Source: Erysipelotrichia bacterium
GTDB lineage: Bacteria; Bacillota_I; Bacilli_A; Erysipelotrichales; Erysipelotrichaceae
NCBI GenBank assembly: GCA_018333955.1
Contig: JAGXSD010000033.1
Span: 1-41,860, forward strand
Length of the DNA: 41,860 bases
Direction: 5' to 3'
Below are positions 34,623-41,860 of the stretch, piece after piece (positions within the stretch are counted from its first letter, which is position 1; every line of letters begins with the position of its first letter). A program made the position numbers and the translations under genes. Under the pieces are notes generated by a model, which was not told where the DNA came from, searched no databases, and worked only from the letters and a program-made list of their open reading frames with translations.

Positions 34623-34763
34623 GTGGGAAGAATATTGGAGAATAATAATTCTAAACTTGAATAAGTTTTTAAAAATAATGAAATGAGCTAATTTGGCTTA
34701 ATAATATTCTTTGTTGAGTATTTCAATGTGTATAATATATTTAAGAAACTCGTGGGGGGTATT

Positions 34764-35921
34764 ATGAATATACTTAATTTATTCAAAAAGCAAAGAATCA
34801 AAGAGGTTGATGATTTAGTTGTTGGTGTAATTGAAGGTAAGATTAAGGATTTGGACGTTATTGAAGAAACATTAAAGAAGTTTCAGAAAAAGTATAGTAA
34901 ATACTACATTGATGACGAGCTCTCGAAAGAATTCGAAAGTAAGATTGTTCATTTAAGAGTGAACTTGAAAAGTATATATGATATTGAACCGAGTAAAAAA
35001 ATTAAAGGAAACAGTTTATTATCTTTGATTGATGATTATACTGTAATTGATATCGAAACAACAGGATTATCCACAAAAACTGACAAAATAATCGAGTTGT
35101 CTGCATTAAAGGTTCGCAATGGAAAGATTATCTCGGAATACAGTAGATTAGTCAATCCAATTATTAAGATTGATAGATTTATCGAAGAATTAACAGGTAT
35201 CACAAACAAAATGCTCTCTAGAGAAAAGTCTATTGAGTTTGTTATTGAGTCTTTTATTGAGTTTATTGGACCAGATATAATACTTGGACATAATATCAAT
35301 TTTGACATTCAATTTATTAATCAAGCACTAGAAGAACTTTCATTGAACCTTCTTCTCAATGATTATATAGATACATTACGGATGTCTAGAAAAGTATATA
35401 AAGAGATACCTAATCATAAATTGAGTACACTGATAGAATTTCATGGATTGACAAGGGATAAACACAGAGCGCTAGTTGATTGCATTTTGACACATCAAAT
35501 ATATCAAAAAACAGTTAAAAAAGTAAAAAAAGAGGGAATTAATCTTTCGTCCAAAAAATCCAGACTATATCAGAAGTATGACCTTTCTGAATTGAAACCA
35601 AATTATGATCTTATTCAAGATGACCACTATTTTGCTAACAAAAGTGTTTGTTTTTCCGGTGAATTAGTACAGTTTCAACGAGTTGATGCTGCACAATTGG
35701 TAATCAATCATGGTGGGAAAGTCCTAAGTGGAGTGAATAGAAATTTAAATATATTAATTTTAGGAGATGATGAGTATTATAAGTCAGATGAAAATGAACT
35801 TTCGATAAAACATAAAAAAGCACTTCAATTAAAGAACCAAGGAATAGATATAGATATTATTGGAGAGAGCAAGTTTGTTGAATATATCAAAGGAAATAAA
35901 AATTCAGAAATTCAAGACTAA
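34764..35921 (+). CDS. DnaQ-like 3'-5' exonuclease with C-terminal BRCT domain
   Basis: 385 residues from ATG 34764 (GTGGGGGGTATT upstream). An N-terminal helical stretch (1-85) is followed by a DEDD exonuclease of the DNA polymerase III epsilon type: ExoI VIDIETTGLSTK (about 93-104), ExoII HNINFDIQFIN (about 175-185) and ExoIII HRALVDCILTHQIY (about 235-248), giving a DEDDh set. A BRCT-like domain ends the protein (about 295-380: KSVCFSGELVQFQR, VINHGGKVLSGVNRNLNILI, QGIDIDIIGESKFVEYI). Exonuclease-BRCT proteins occur in Bacillota and may trim or repair DNA; none is well studied. Codon use is rich in ATA and AGA like the HNH and glycine-zipper genes, suggesting acquired DNA. Confidence 0.88.
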   Translation: MNILNLFKKQRIKEVDDLVVGVIEGKIKDLDVIEETLKKFQKKYSKYYIDDELSKEFESKIVHLRVNLKSIYDIEPSKKIKGNSLLSLIDDYTVIDIETTGLSTKTDKIIELSALKVRNGKIISEYSRLVNPIIKIDRFIEELTGITNKMLSREKSIEFVIESFIEFIGPDIILGHNINFDIQFINQALEELSLNLLLNDYIDTLRMSRKVYKEIPNHKLSTLIEFHGLTRDKHRALVDCILTHQIYQKTVKKVKKEGINLSSKKSRLYQKYDLSELKPNYDLIQDDHYFANKSVCFSGELVQFQRVDAAQLVINHGGKVLSGVNRNLNILILGDDEYYKSDENELSIKHKKALQLKNQGIDIDIIGESKFVEYIKGNKNSEIQD

Positions 35922-35948: not shown

Positions 35949-37001
35949 TTACTTCACTTCTTTTATCGCTTCAATCCCACTTTTCATCACGAGTATGCGA
36001 ATCCAAGGAGTATAAAGCACGACGGATTTAAGTATTTTTAAGAAGATCTTAAACTTAAGTTTTCGACTTCTTTTCTTGTATTCTTTTAAAGGATTTTGAT
36101 GATGCATTGAGGCTGCTGCCATCAGAGCACTATCCATCGCATAACTAATGCCTTCAAGAGAACTTGGTGAAATCCAACCTGCCGCTTCCCCAATAAGCAA
36201 ACATGCATCTTCTCCACAAAATATCTGATTTAGTTGTTTTGGAGAATTTACTAAACATGCTTCTTTAAAGATTGGGGATGCTAGAGGATATCCTGAAGAA
36301 ATTAGCTGAGATTTAAAAGCTTCATAATGTTTAAGCGAATCTTGTAATGGTAATGCGGCACCAAATTCAACACGTTCATTTTTCACATTAATCCAACCAT
36401 AACTATCAGTCAGTCTTTGATCAAAGAAACATCCTAAATGAGGATCCATATCTTCAAGTTTAAAATGTTCTTGAATGGCCATGTATTGTCGAATCTTAGG
36501 AGCGTTTAATTTTGATCTCACTAACGAGTTTGCGCCATCGGCCCCAACACACATATCAAAGCTAAGAGTATGGGTTTGTCCTGATTGCTCATACGTTAAA
36601 GTATGAGGAATTGACTTAAAGTCAATGTTTTTAACAATAGCTTGATCAATAACATTCACATGATTGGGGATCTTAGAGATTAACCATTGATCAAAGCGAT
36701 GACGATGAATATTAATATAATGACGTTGGTAGACTTGTTTTAGATTATTGTTGAGGTCTACAGTCTTAACAGAAAACATCTGCGGAGAAGCACATACTTC
36801 AAGAGGAACACTTAACTTAAGTTTACTGAGTGTCTTCTGAGCATCAGGTGAAAGAAGTCCACCACAAGGCTTATGAAAACCATCATTTCCATGATGATGT
36901 TTCTTATCTATGACACAGATTGAAAGATGTGAAGGTGCATAGCTTGCGAAGATCGAACCCGCAACTCCAGCCCCAATGACGACGACATTATAATGATTCA
37001 T
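35949..37001 (-). CDS. FAD-dependent oxidoreductase, geranylgeranyl-reductase-like
   Basis: 350 residues. The N-terminal Rossmann motif is VVVIGAGVAGSIFASYA, followed by an acidic end of beta-2 (ICVIDKK) and KPCGGLLS, the conserved PCGG(G/L)(L/I)S loop of geranylgeranyl reductase-type flavoproteins. A second FAD motif (CVGADGANSLVRSKL) is at about 150-165, and the C-terminal GEAAGWISPSSLEGISYAMDS closes the flavin site. These enzymes reduce isoprenoid chains or related lipids; a link to the mevalonate operon 17 kb away is possible but unproven. No ribosome site better than AAGAGA is seen at the ATG. It is read opposite to its neighbours. Confidence 0.85.
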   Translation of the reverse strand: MNHYNVVVIGAGVAGSIFASYAPSHLSICVIDKKHHHGNDGFHKPCGGLLSPDAQKTLSKLKLSVPLEVCASPQMFSVKTVDLNNNLKQVYQRHYINIHRHRFDQWLISKIPNHVNVIDQAIVKNIDFKSIPHTLTYEQSGQTHTLSFDMCVGADGANSLVRSKLNAPKIRQYMAIQEHFKLEDMDPHLGCFFDQRLTDSYGWINVKNERVEFGAALPLQDSLKHYEAFKSQLISSGYPLASPIFKEACLVNSPKQLNQIFCGEDACLLIGEAAGWISPSSLEGISYAMDSALMAAASMHHQNPLKEYKKRSRKLKFKIFLKILKSVVLYTPWIRILVMKSGIEAIKEVK

Positions 37002-37191: not shown

Positions 37192-37206
37192 CACTTCTAT
37201 TAAGTG
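37192..37206 (+). promoter_or_regulatory. Inverted repeat, candidate operator of the HTH/glycine-zipper gene
   Basis: CACTT, spacer CTATT, AAGTG, 27 bases before the ATG at 37233. TATACA occurs twice upstream (37171 and 37189 regions), so the repeat overlaps the probable transcription start. The encoded protein has an XRE-type HTH, so autorepression is plausible. The remaining 190 bases of this gap are AT-rich with no gene. Confidence 0.4.
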
Positions 37207-37232: not shown

Positions 37233-38990
37233 ATGCAATTTGGTCGCCATTTAAAAGTTCTTAGAAAATTATCAAAGTTGAATATCGATGATTTTGCTTT
37301 GCTTTTAGATGTGAATTCTCAAACCATAGTGGATTGGGAGACAGGAAAAGAAATCCCAAATCTAGACATGATTGGAAAAATTTCTAATCTTTTAAACACT
37401 TACGGAATAACTTCATCACTTCTAAATAAGACAAAAACAGAATCAGTGTTCGACTTCTCTTCAACAGAAGTAAGTTTTATTACAATGCATCATGGCATTG
37501 TACAATTATATGGATCAGTAATTAAAGAGCATATTATTGCATATACTGGGAAAAACCATGAAACCAATGAAGTCACTCAGTTAAGTTTGAAAAGTATAGC
37601 ATCTAGAAGGGTAAACCCTGAATATGAGTATTCTAATATCAAACAGCAGGCAGGATTTTCTGCAGAAGTAAAAACTCAGGCAAGAAAAAGTGCCGAAAGC
37701 ATTATTAACAATAAAAAGATATATTTTAAAAGAACTGATGATATTAAAACTCAGAAATTAAAGGGAGATTCAACAATTGGTGGGATTAATGACCCATTAT
37801 TTGATATTGCTGCAGTGAACTCGAGAGGTGTATTTATAAAGGGTTCTGAGACCCAATTGAAATATCTTGGTGAGGATTCACAAGAGTGTTTTAGATTATT
37901 AATGTTGAATAAATTTGATAAGTATCGATCTTCTGATGCCTTGATTGAGATTCCCCTAGATTTTTATCCAGATGTAAAAAGAAGACTTAGAGAAAAAATC
38001 ATACAAACGGAACACATCATTGAGTATGCAAGAAAAAATGGTAAGAATGATATTGTTCTTAAAGAACAAGCAAAACTAGATAAATATAAGTTAACTGATA
38101 AAAATCTAGTGGAAGGTAAATTAACAAATCAAGAGGCTATTGAAGCAAGATTACATCCATTAAGATCTACAGTTAAAGATGTTGCAAGTCTATCTCATGA
38201 AGCAGGAAAAATTGCAGCGGTTAATAGTGTAATAGTAGGAGGTGGGGTTTCCTTTATTCGTAATAGTATACTTGTTTTTAAAGGAGATAAGAATGCAATC
38301 GATGCTTTAAAGGATATATCTCAAGAAACCTTGAAATCATCATCTTTAGGCTATGCTACAGCTTTTGCTGGATCATCGATTAAAGGTACAATGCAAAATT
38401 CAAGTAGTGATTATGTGAGAGCACTATCAAAAACAGGATTACCAGTTATAGCAGTGTCTGTCTTGATTGAGACAAGTCAATCGATTTCAAGATTATTTAA
38501 TGGGGAGATTGATGGAACTGAGTTTCTGCATGAAATTGGTCAAAAAGGTTCGAGCATGCTCGCATCTGCTGCTGGGGCAGGTGTAGGTCAAATAGTTATC
38601 CCCATTCCTGTGTTAGGTGGTTTAGTAGGTGGAATGATAGGATACTCAATGTCTAGTGCGTATTATAGTAGTTTACTTATGGTGCTAAGTGAAGCAAAAC
38701 TCGCAAGAGAATATCGTGAATTGGTTGAAATTGAATGTAAGAATGCTATCATCTCAATAAGAAACTATAGAAGTGAAGTTAATCACCTCATTGATTCCTA
38801 TATTTCAGATTATCGAGAGACATTTGAAAATGCACTAAATGAAATTAATACCGCATATCGTTTTTCTGACATAAATAAGGCAATTCTTGCTAGCAATATT
38901 ATTACGAATAAAATGGGAAAAGAAGCACTATTTGAAGATATGGATGACTTTCAAAGAATTATGGAAAGCAACACGAACATCAAACTATAG
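37233..38990 (+). CDS. XRE-type HTH fused to a glycine-zipper membrane protein (unknown system, component A)
   Basis: 585 residues, ATG preceded by GAGGAAAG. Residues 1-60 are a Cro/XRE helix-turn-helix (RHLKVLRKLSKLNIDDFALL, DVNSQTIVDWETGKEIPNLD). A soluble middle (about 125-310) contains NPEYEYSNIKQQAGFSAEVK and GGINDPLFDIAAVNSRG, where I recall similar stretches in unnamed Bacillota and Bacteroidota proteins. Gly/Ala-rich, membrane-compatible stretches follow at about 325-348, 373-385, 402-412 and 440-480 (GAGVGQIVIPIPVLGGLVGG), then a helical tail. This suggests a protein that can insert in membranes yet bind DNA or partner. The next gene follows after 8 bases and has the same style. Function not known. 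Confidence 0.75.
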   Translation: MQFGRHLKVLRKLSKLNIDDFALLLDVNSQTIVDWETGKEIPNLDMIGKISNLLNTYGITSSLLNKTKTESVFDFSSTEVSFITMHHGIVQLYGSVIKEHIIAYTGKNHETNEVTQLSLKSIASRRVNPEYEYSNIKQQAGFSAEVKTQARKSAESIINNKKIYFKRTDDIKTQKLKGDSTIGGINDPLFDIAAVNSRGVFIKGSETQLKYLGEDSQECFRLLMLNKFDKYRSSDALIEIPLDFYPDVKRRLREKIIQTEHIIEYARKNGKNDIVLKEQAKLDKYKLTDKNLVEGKLTNQEAIEARLHPLRSTVKDVASLSHEAGKIAAVNSVIVGGGVSFIRNSILVFKGDKNAIDALKDISQETLKSSSLGYATAFAGSSIKGTMQNSSSDYVRALSKTGLPVIAVSVLIETSQSISRLFNGEIDGTEFLHEIGQKGSSMLASAAGAGVGQIVIPIPVLGGLVGGMIGYSMSSAYYSSLLMVLSEAKLAREYRELVEIECKNAIISIRNYRSEVNHLIDSYISDYRETFENALNEINTAYRFSDINKAILASNIITNKMGKEALFEDMDDFQRIMESNTNIKL

Positions 38991-38998
38991 GAGTTTAT

Positions 38999-40000
38999 AT
39001 GGCAATAAGTAAAATCATCTTAAAAGCAGCTGGCCTTGTTGCATCATGGGGTGCTCTCAAAGCATTTGATGCATATGAGAAAAATCAGGAAGCCAAAGAA
39101 GTAAATGCATCAGCAAATAAGTTAGTTGAAGATGCGCGTGCTTTTACAAACCAAAAAAGAATTGATTCTTCAAAAAGCTTACAACTACTTGGTGAAGTAA
39201 AATTAAGTGTTCTAGATGAATCTATATATAGATTTATTAATGCTTTTGAAAAAATAAAAAACATTGAACTTTCAAACACGGTAGGTATTGAAGAACTAAA
39301 TAAGTTTAGAATAGATAAAAATGCTACCATTGAATTACGAGAGCTTAGCGTCATGGCTCACTCAGTAATGCAAGGATTGGTCGCAGGATCAGGAGCAGGG
39401 GCTTTAACTGCTTATGGTGCATACAGTGCGACAATGATGCTTGCGAAAGCTTCAACTGGTACTGCAATTGCTACACTAAGCGGAGTGGCAGCCAAGAATG
39501 CCACATTAGCATTTTTAGGAGGTGGAGCTTTAGCAGCAGGAGGAGGAGGTATGGCAATGGGTTCAATTGTACTTGGAGGTGTTATTGCTGCTCCAGCTAT
39601 TGCCATATTGGGAGTTTTTCTTGACGCAACAGCAAGTAAAAACCTTGACTTAGCCTATGTAAACCAAGCAGAAGCTATGGTAATCATTGAAGAATTGAAG
39701 ATTGCAAATGACATTTTTGAAGGTATAAAGAATCGTTCAAAACTATTTATAGATTTACTTTATAAATTGAATCCAATATTTGTGAAACTGATAAATCAAA
39801 TTGAGCGCTTAGTAGTTGAATCTGGAACTAATTTCTCTGAGTACTCACAAAGCGAAAAAGAAAAGATTGCAATGTCTTTAAGCATTGCTGGTGCAATCAA
39901 AAGTGTACTAGACACTCCAATTCTTACGGAAGACGGAAATATTACAGTAGAATCAGAAAAAATTGGTCATGAAATTGGAAAGATAATTTTAAACCAATAG
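38999..40000 (+). CDS. Glycine-zipper membrane protein (unknown system, component B)
   Basis: 333 residues, ATG preceded by AGGAG. A short hydrophobic start (ISKIILKAAGLVASWGALKA) and a helical region (20-115) are followed by a long Gly/Ala/Ser-rich block (about 125-210) with GSGAGALTAYGAYSATMML, ASTGTAIATLSGVAAKNATL, FLGGGALAAGGGGMAMGSIV and LGGVIAAPAIAILGVFL, the pattern of glycine-zipper helices that pack into channels or insert in bilayers. The C-terminal part (215-333) is helical and soluble. I recall near-identical glycine blocks in many hypothetical bacterial proteins, but no assigned function. It lies 8 bases after component A and is very probably co-translated with it. Confidence 0.75.
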   Translation: MAISKIILKAAGLVASWGALKAFDAYEKNQEAKEVNASANKLVEDARAFTNQKRIDSSKSLQLLGEVKLSVLDESIYRFINAFEKIKNIELSNTVGIEELNKFRIDKNATIELRELSVMAHSVMQGLVAGSGAGALTAYGAYSATMMLAKASTGTAIATLSGVAAKNATLAFLGGGALAAGGGGMAMGSIVLGGVIAAPAIAILGVFLDATASKNLDLAYVNQAEAMVIIEELKIANDIFEGIKNRSKLFIDLLYKLNPIFVKLINQIERLVVESGTNFSEYSQSEKEKIAMSLSIAGAIKSVLDTPILTEDGNITVESEKIGHEIGKIILNQ

Positions 40001-40093: not shown

Positions 40094-40411
40094 TTATTTA
40101 AGAAGTGTATACTTACCAATCACAGGTAATTCTTTTGCCTGACCATTGTAGGCATTGAGTGCCCCCATGAAAAACAAGACAAGCAAAATGACATTAAGGA
40201 CTGGGACTAAAAGAATTCCAATAATTGAAATCGTTAGTATTGCATTCCCAACGAGTGAAACAATGAGTAACAACAATCCTTGATTCGCGTGGAATTTTCC
40301 ATACTCAGAATCTTTGTCTACAATCAGCGGTAGGAAGAAAATCGCATAAGCAAGTGCGGCAATGACCTTGTTTTTTTCAATGTCTTCGGCGGAATACACT
40401 TTTTCACTCAT
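40094..40411 (-). CDS. DUF4870-like small membrane protein
   Basis: 105 residues, ATG preceded by AAAGGAGAA. Three helices: VIAALAYAIFFLPLIV, GLLLLIVSLVGNAILTISII, GILLVPVLNVILLVLFFMGA. The linker FHANQGLLL is a hallmark of small membrane proteins in the DUF4870/Tic20-like group. Its role is unknown; relatives often neighbour cell-envelope genes. It has its own terminator, so it appears monocistronic. Confidence 0.8.
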   Translation of the reverse strand: MSEKVYSAEDIEKNKVIAALAYAIFFLPLIVDKDSEYGKFHANQGLLLLIVSLVGNAILTISIIGILLVPVLNVILLVLFFMGALNAYNGQAKELPVIGKYTLLK

Positions 40412-41617: not shown

Positions 41618-41860
41618 ATGCAAAACCTTAAATTACAATTAGAGTATAAACCAACTCAACTCATTTTACCAGTCAATTTAGAACATAAAATTGATGAAAA
41701 CGATCCTGTTATCAGTTTTAAGGAAGTCGTAGGTGGACTTAAACTTTCTCAGTTTATTCAATCTTCTACCAAAGGAAGGAACGAGTACAACCCAGAGATG
41801 ATGATTCATGTCATCCTATTTGGATTTATGGAAAACATTCGAAGTTTGAGAGCGTTGGAG
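41618..41860 (+). CDS. IS1182-family-like transposase, N-terminal 81 residues
   Basis: The frame is open to the window edge. It begins MQNLKLQLEYKPTQLILPVN and continues with DENDPVISFKEVV, LKLSQF, GRNEYNPEMMIHVILFGFME and NIRSLRALE. This matches the DUF772-type N-terminal domain of IS1182/IS4-like transposases, with the family pattern of a (Y/H)(D/N)P segment ahead of a helix and a final SxRxLE. The catalytic core is outside the window. The gene looks intact here, in contrast to the IS30 copy at the other end. Confidence 0.75.
   Translation, partial: MQNLKLQLEYKPTQLILPVNLEHKIDENDPVISFKEVVGGLKLSQFIQSSTKGRNEYNPEMMIHVILFGFMENIRSLRALE

Follow-up and report, generated by a model that had tools for sequence, protein, structure and literature searches.

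A horizontally acquired variant of the phage defence candidate PDC-M09 carries a nuclease-like signature in an Erysipelotrichia bacterium

PDC stands for 'phage defence candidate' (PMC11514479), and PADLOC describes the candidate PDC-M09 by two protein models, PDC-M09A and PDC-M09B. A literature search, which did not extend to most subscription papers or to bioRxiv preprints outside PMC, found no paper that names or tests PDC-M09. Two defence systems, Bunzi and Shango, include TerB as a component (PMC10952713), and Bunzi consists of the TerB protein BnzA together with BnzB. In the Juk system the pore-former JukB is reported to form tetrameric pores once recruited by the sensor JukA (PMC13282480). 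JukB acts on the early phage vesicle. SNIPE is a membrane-bound nuclease, encoded by one gene with GIY-YIG and DUF4041 domains, and cleaves the DNA of a phage while it is being injected (PMC13190303). The Eleos/Leo systems are dynamin-like.

We compared these systems with a two-gene locus in a 41,860-nucleotide stretch of DNA from an Erysipelotrichia bacterium (hereafter the window). ORF analysis of the window placed gene A (37233..38990, 585 residues) and gene B (38999..40000, 333 residues) on the plus strand with an 8-base gap between them, in agreement with a preliminary description of the same DNA. The product of A has an XRE-type helix-turn-helix (HTH), a PD-(D/E)XK-like head, a helical Gly-rich region and a conserved coiled tail, and that of B has long helices around a near-invariant Gly/Ala hydrophobic block. 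When both proteins were searched with profiles, as the preliminary description had proposed, B matched PDC-M09A (E 1.6e-23 and 1e-21) and A matched PDC-M09B over residues 279-542 (E 1e-13 and 4e-13), these being E-values to which PADLOC's own cut-offs were not applied. Among the relatives, the A proteins of L006 and L016 match PDC-M09B over most of the profile. Because PDC denotes a phage defence candidate, the system to which the pair belongs is a predicted one that has already been catalogued. It resembles PDC-M09 in that its two proteins match the two models and are encoded by adjacent genes on one strand, and it differs in the XRE HTH fused to A. We conclude that the pair is a variant of PDC-M09 and not, as had been supposed, a system without a description.

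The family is widespread. Relatives of B were collected from 84,980 species genomes, in which at least 352 were found; the best 80 loci were kept, a sample biased to near relatives. A is present in 73 of these 80 loci, and in five of the seven exceptions B lies less than 900 bp from a contig edge, so that A accompanies B in 73 of the 75 loci with room for it. Both genes are on the same strand in 73/73 loci, with A preceding B in 70 of them, which bears out the earlier view of a two-gene module. A third gene stands between A and B in 60 of the 73 loci, and all 63 such ORFs fall into one homology cluster, examples of which match TerB (PF05099; E 2e-6 in L016 and 1.4e-3 in L017). The window, the Bacteroidota, Azospirillum and a few others do without it. 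After B, 13 loci carry a CxxCxxCC (PF03692) gene.

All 79 A proteins are connected into a single family by their C-terminal tail, which in window A comprises residues 477-585 (38661..38987, plus strand) and ends in the motif FxxxMxS; their N-terminal parts differ. Class 1 contains 38 proteins of about 520 residues that are built like window A minus the HTH, class 2 contains 31 proteins that reach about 800 residues, and class 3 contains nine short headless proteins of about 280 residues, which indicates that the head is not always needed. The tail is common to the M48/BnzB and the headless variants. The class 2 protein of L017 matches an M48 peptidase (E 2e-15) and BnzB (E 1e-43), and the class 1 protein of L048 has in place of the usual head an HNH-like motif, read from the sequence and without Pfam support. 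The family thus touches Bunzi at two points, the TerB-like gene between A and B in relatives of the window system and the 800-residue A variant that contains BnzB with the same C-terminal tail. The window differs from Bunzi in both respects, since its A, searched with E-values up to 1 allowed, does not match PADLOC's model for BnzB and its genome contains no BnzA-type TerB (PF05099) at the Pfam cut-off in a search with positive controls. On the Ruminococcus albus plasmid pRUMAL01 (L096:5762-10311), a HerA/DUF87 ATPase gene is followed by a gene for a protein with the A head and a Gly zipper, with no B found adjoining it, and this locus may represent a HerA-nuclease system in its own right, equipped with the same head.

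Juk is connected to the family by gene neighbourhood. A JukA-like gene directly follows B in four Bacteroidota loci (E 6e-43 in L023), and in two Prevotellaceae loci (L023 and L024) JukA-like genes lie on both sides of the pair. The window locus appears to differ in having no JukA-like gene: a Prevotellaceae JukA-like query found none in the window genome in a search run without a positive control, and neither A nor B gave a JukB match in PADLOC, which may lack a model for it. Eleos/Leo is echoed by weak matches of B relatives to LeoBC/LeoA (E 1e-5 for the dynamin-like LeoBC model) and by L093, in which two GTPase/dynamin-like genes come after B; window B differs in carrying no GTPase domain. 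In that locus (L093:9983-14733) both ORFs are large and come directly after B, the first being a GTPase with a weak Dynamin_N match, so that B has other partners there. The LeoBC matches and loci such as L093 fit a B that belongs to a membrane module. SNIPE resembles the pair in its proposed working only, a membrane tether plus a nuclease, and is not a relative by domains, as Pfam found neither GIY-YIG nor DUF4041 in A or B.

Plasmid-borne relatives of B were found in Klebsiella, Azospirillum, Massilia, Acinetobacter, Vitreoscilla and Streptomyces, with type I restriction, SIR2, SAVED, toxin-antitoxin or phosphorothioation-associated genes as neighbours. In E. coli, a B island is present in 3 of 5426 genomes next to an integrase at tRNA-Sec, and it consists of a WYL/HTH regulator, B, an HNH-like partner, a YkgJ gene and the integrase (L094:14042-18172, L095). 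The HNH-like partner is called 'cobalamin adenosyltransferase' in one strain, which looks like a misannotation. In a bulk PADLOC scan, 148 neighbours matched 130 models compared with 38 for 123 control proteins, the counts being of overlapping models and not of proteins, and the control matches came mostly from two specificity subunits and mad3. The WYL excess alone is noteworthy (6 members of one model and none listed in the control), and we consider the enrichment of defence families among the neighbours to be modest. The relatives are patchily distributed and lie in mobile-element contexts, not in conserved housekeeping loci. Together with the match to PDC-M09 and the relatives near JukA, BnzB and WYL regulators, these contexts agree with the probable defence role proposed at the outset. 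Close to the three-gene locus of M48 type in G016 (L117:11895-13999) are putative genes for a PAPS-reductase-type protein and a DUF4007 protein, which are typical of defence islands.

The A-B pair was acquired horizontally, as synteny demonstrates. The insertion site is flanked, outside the module, by a DUF4870-like gene (40094..40411, minus strand; E 2e-4, just under the cut-off) and a FAD-dependent oxidoreductase-like gene (35949..37001, minus strand). The same-genus genome G002 has these two genes as neighbours 94 bp apart (L114: 6057-6428 and 6523-7569), whereas in the window A and B, encoded on the other strand, stand between them, and the window pair is therefore an acquired insert. Acquisition had been proposed from codon use and from the position beside an exonuclease-BRCT gene, and here the conclusion stood while the codon evidence did not: GC3 is 0.22 in A and 0.21 in B versus 0.25-0.38 in neighbour genes, which is only slightly low, and we set this weak sign aside in favour of synteny. 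No B was found in the other five genomes of this genus, and 3 of 35 other relatives have one; within the order, a B-family match occurs in 24 of 245 genomes and an A match in 14 of 245. A tree built from 87 B proteins puts window B on a long branch, whose placement is itself unsure, apart from the B genes that come from its family or order (L004, L003). The module is patchy in its distribution and has been transferred. A phage origin was considered and rejected, with B unmatched in phage records and viral contigs and A unmatched in phage records.

The most informative feature of the pair, which the preliminary description missed, is the head of A (residues 78-320; 37464..38192, plus strand), predicted as an alpha/beta domain. 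In an AlphaFold2 model built from a 34-row alignment, residues 90-310 have pLDDT values mostly of 90-97, and the head is the best-predicted part of the A-B pair. DSSP assigns to it a helix at 129-158, strands at 164-167, 192-195 and 207-209, helices within 216-233 and a strand at 237-240. E145 (37665..37667, plus strand) lies on the long helix ahead of the sheet, D191 (37803..37805, plus strand) just before strand 192-195, and Q208-L-K210 (37854..37862, plus strand) forms a QxK motif on strand 207-209. The resulting order, helix (E), strand, strand (D), strand (QxK), helix, strand, is compatible with a PD-(D/E)XK core as far as the order of elements goes. E145, D191, Q208 and K210 are invariant in 31 of 31 aligned heads, the remaining invariant positions being Gly, Ala, Ile and one Tyr only, and the E ... 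D ... (D/E/Q)xK active-site pattern is conserved throughout the 31-sequence alignment. E...D...QxK is the pattern of PD-(D/E)XK nucleases with QxK as the third motif. Aligned Mrr proteins of the same order show F-E ... D-x15-QxK compared with D-x16-QxK in A.

The head gave no sequence-profile match to PDB chains, Pfam families or the Mrr profile, and Foldseek and VIA-align searches with the whole A model returned helix matches only. Distant PD-(D/E)XK members often escape profile searches. The nuclease assignment consequently rests on the motif and the predicted topology, and the invariance of the four head residues argues for catalysis. We consider the head to be probably a PD-(D/E)XK-like nuclease. 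Both proteins had been described as potential pore formers, a view not supported here; a nuclease-like, enzymatic head in A is the likelier case, and it alters the probable mechanism.

Each protein contains a hydrophobic Gly-rich stretch that could meet the membrane. In A this is the putative membrane segment at residues 439-476 (38547..38660, plus strand), with a peak 19-residue Kyte-Doolittle mean of 1.87 and low model confidence (pLDDT below 50 over the Gly-rich residues 450-488). In B the conserved hydrophobic Gly/Ala block covers residues 127-207 (39377..39619, plus strand), is near-invariant in an alignment of 73 relatives and is the most conserved part of the protein; its hydrophobic stretch at 168-216 has a peak 19-residue mean of 2.59. 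The B model places long helices at 3-84 and 198-275 on either side of this block, which itself has pLDDT below 50. Apart from one in each protein, membrane segments are weak, and they are predicted with low confidence. Of the long Gly/Ala membrane helices first described, the Gly/Ala hydrophobic stretch is thus found in both proteins, but its insertion is uncertain, and association of the pair with the membrane is likely. A glycine-zipper character was not confirmed, as the GxxxG count does not exceed what composition predicts in either protein (shuffle fractions 0.07 for A and 0.17 for B). Common ancestry of A and B found no backing from hhalign, which aligned only a Gly-rich stretch with a probability of 6.5%. 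In structural comparisons of B, ClyA (Z 6.0) and YaxAB (Z 4.4) were listed within a range of unrelated long-helix matches. B proteins of 524-528 residues at L026:2268-3854 and L084:9977-11551 have a C-terminal extension of about 200 residues with no convincing Pfam match, and a profile search indicates that it is not JukA.

The HTH reported in A was recovered at residues 7-56 (37251..37400, plus strand; Pfam HTH_3, E 4.1e-8, 33.6 bits against a cut-off of 23); Pfam has no family for the body of A or of B. A window-type HTH is absent from the 33 aligned A relatives, and a phmmer search with the window HTH against all 79 A proteins matched the window alone. Among 392 genomes of the phylum, the only other match is in G027 and starts at residue 89, and the A of G027 is likewise without a window-type HTH. 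The fusion of this HTH to A is therefore confined to the window among the relatives examined, and it ties the regulator to the system as one fusion protein. Elsewhere a separate regulator can be found just upstream: nine M48-type loci have small XRE ORFs, L019 and L050 have another XRE, and five loci plus Azospirillum have WYL regulators. Of these, only the XRE of L050 is similar to the HTH of the window (E 2e-5). An inverted repeat ahead of A (CACTT-ctatt-AAGTG, 37192-37206) had been suggested as its operator. We rejected it, because its arms are 5 bp and arms of at least 7 bp occur in about one in three shuffled versions of this stretch; a sigma-70 scan gave no excess over shuffles. Autoregulation of the pair through a putative repressor HTH is plausible.

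From the predicted domains and models, we tentatively propose that the pair is an infection-triggered, membrane-tethered nuclease with B as its membrane partner and with its own regulator. The acquired cassette would be a small anti-phage system of PDC-M09 type: B, by way of its hydrophobic Gly/Ala block, and the A tail would lie together on or in the inner membrane, with the nuclease-like head facing the cytoplasm. An early sign of infection at the membrane, such as DNA entry, would rearrange the A-B complex and let the head cut DNA near the entry point, and the N-terminal XRE domain would repress its own promoter and hold expression of a dangerous pair low. Different enzyme-like heads on related tails, M48 with BnzB in one case and HNH-like in another, are as expected of an effector domain. 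Supporting such a nuclease are also the head-bearing relative beside the HerA/DUF87 ATPase on the Ruminococcus plasmid and the E. coli B with an HNH-like partner beside an integrase at tRNA-Sec, and SNIPE may serve as a precedent by analogy. Counted against it are the lack of a profile match for the head, the headless variants and the weak membrane segments.

The nearest rival, which we regard as unlikely, holds that B and the tail of A form pores or break membranes upon infection in the manner of JukB, with the head as a sensor or a dead nuclease controlling the attack. The near-invariant hydrophobic block of B between long helices, the weak LeoBC matches and the headless A variants would all suit such an attack, as would the JukA-like genes beside the pair in Bacteroidota, given the reported recruitment of the JukB pore by JukA. 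The presence of ClyA and YaxAB in the structural list could be added, but low in that list their Z-scores do not rise above those of unrelated long-helix proteins; four invariant head residues favour catalysis, and JukA found no match in the window genome, in the search without a positive control.

The membrane-tethered nuclease also has to be weighed against two readings in which the pair is regulated or used differently. A Ter-type membrane or metal stress module that spreads by transfer, outside defence, seems improbable to us: the TerB-like third gene, the CxxCxxCC metal-binding gene after B and the modest neighbour enrichment would accord with it, yet TerB itself occurs in Bunzi and Shango, BnzB and JukA matches are found among the relatives, and the distribution is patchy with mobile-element contexts. 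Less probable still, we think, is a toxin-antitoxin-like pair in which A is an autoregulated toxic nuclease kept inactive at the membrane by B until infection or loss of the locus. A fused XRE regulator and a two-gene operon are typical of such pairs, and the insert lies between chromosomal genes; however, B is of effector size, is as conserved and has no antitoxin features, most relatives have a TerB-like third gene unlike a toxin-antitoxin pair, and the HTH is here on the presumed toxin.

For the nuclease reading, the head signature turns PDC-M09 into a concrete and quickly testable proposal. PDC-M09 is linked to Bunzi and Juk, which are usually listed apart, by the common tail, by the third gene resembling TerB and by the JukA-like neighbours, and these links suggest a single membrane platform with exchangeable effectors. 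On this broader and more doubtful reading, PDC-M09, the BnzB branch and the TerB- and JukA-linked loci would be one large family of membrane platforms made of B and the A tail, with heads swapped among a PD-(D/E)XK-like nuclease, an HNH-like nuclease, an M48 peptidase and none. In the window, fusion of the regulator to the nuclease would have produced a single protein that is repressor, nuclease and membrane anchor at once and senses DNA entry.

Two further genes of the window are of note. The exonuclease gene at 34728-35921 encodes DEDDh and BRCT domains and has an unusually low GC content (0.29); among its best-scoring relatives, both domains are matched only in G036 and G014, and in G002 the equivalent position is taken by two unrelated ORFs. 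This gene could therefore be a second acquisition, at a variable site. At the end of the window, an ORF that starts at 41618 and runs off the edge at 41860 presumably encodes the N-terminus of a transposase.
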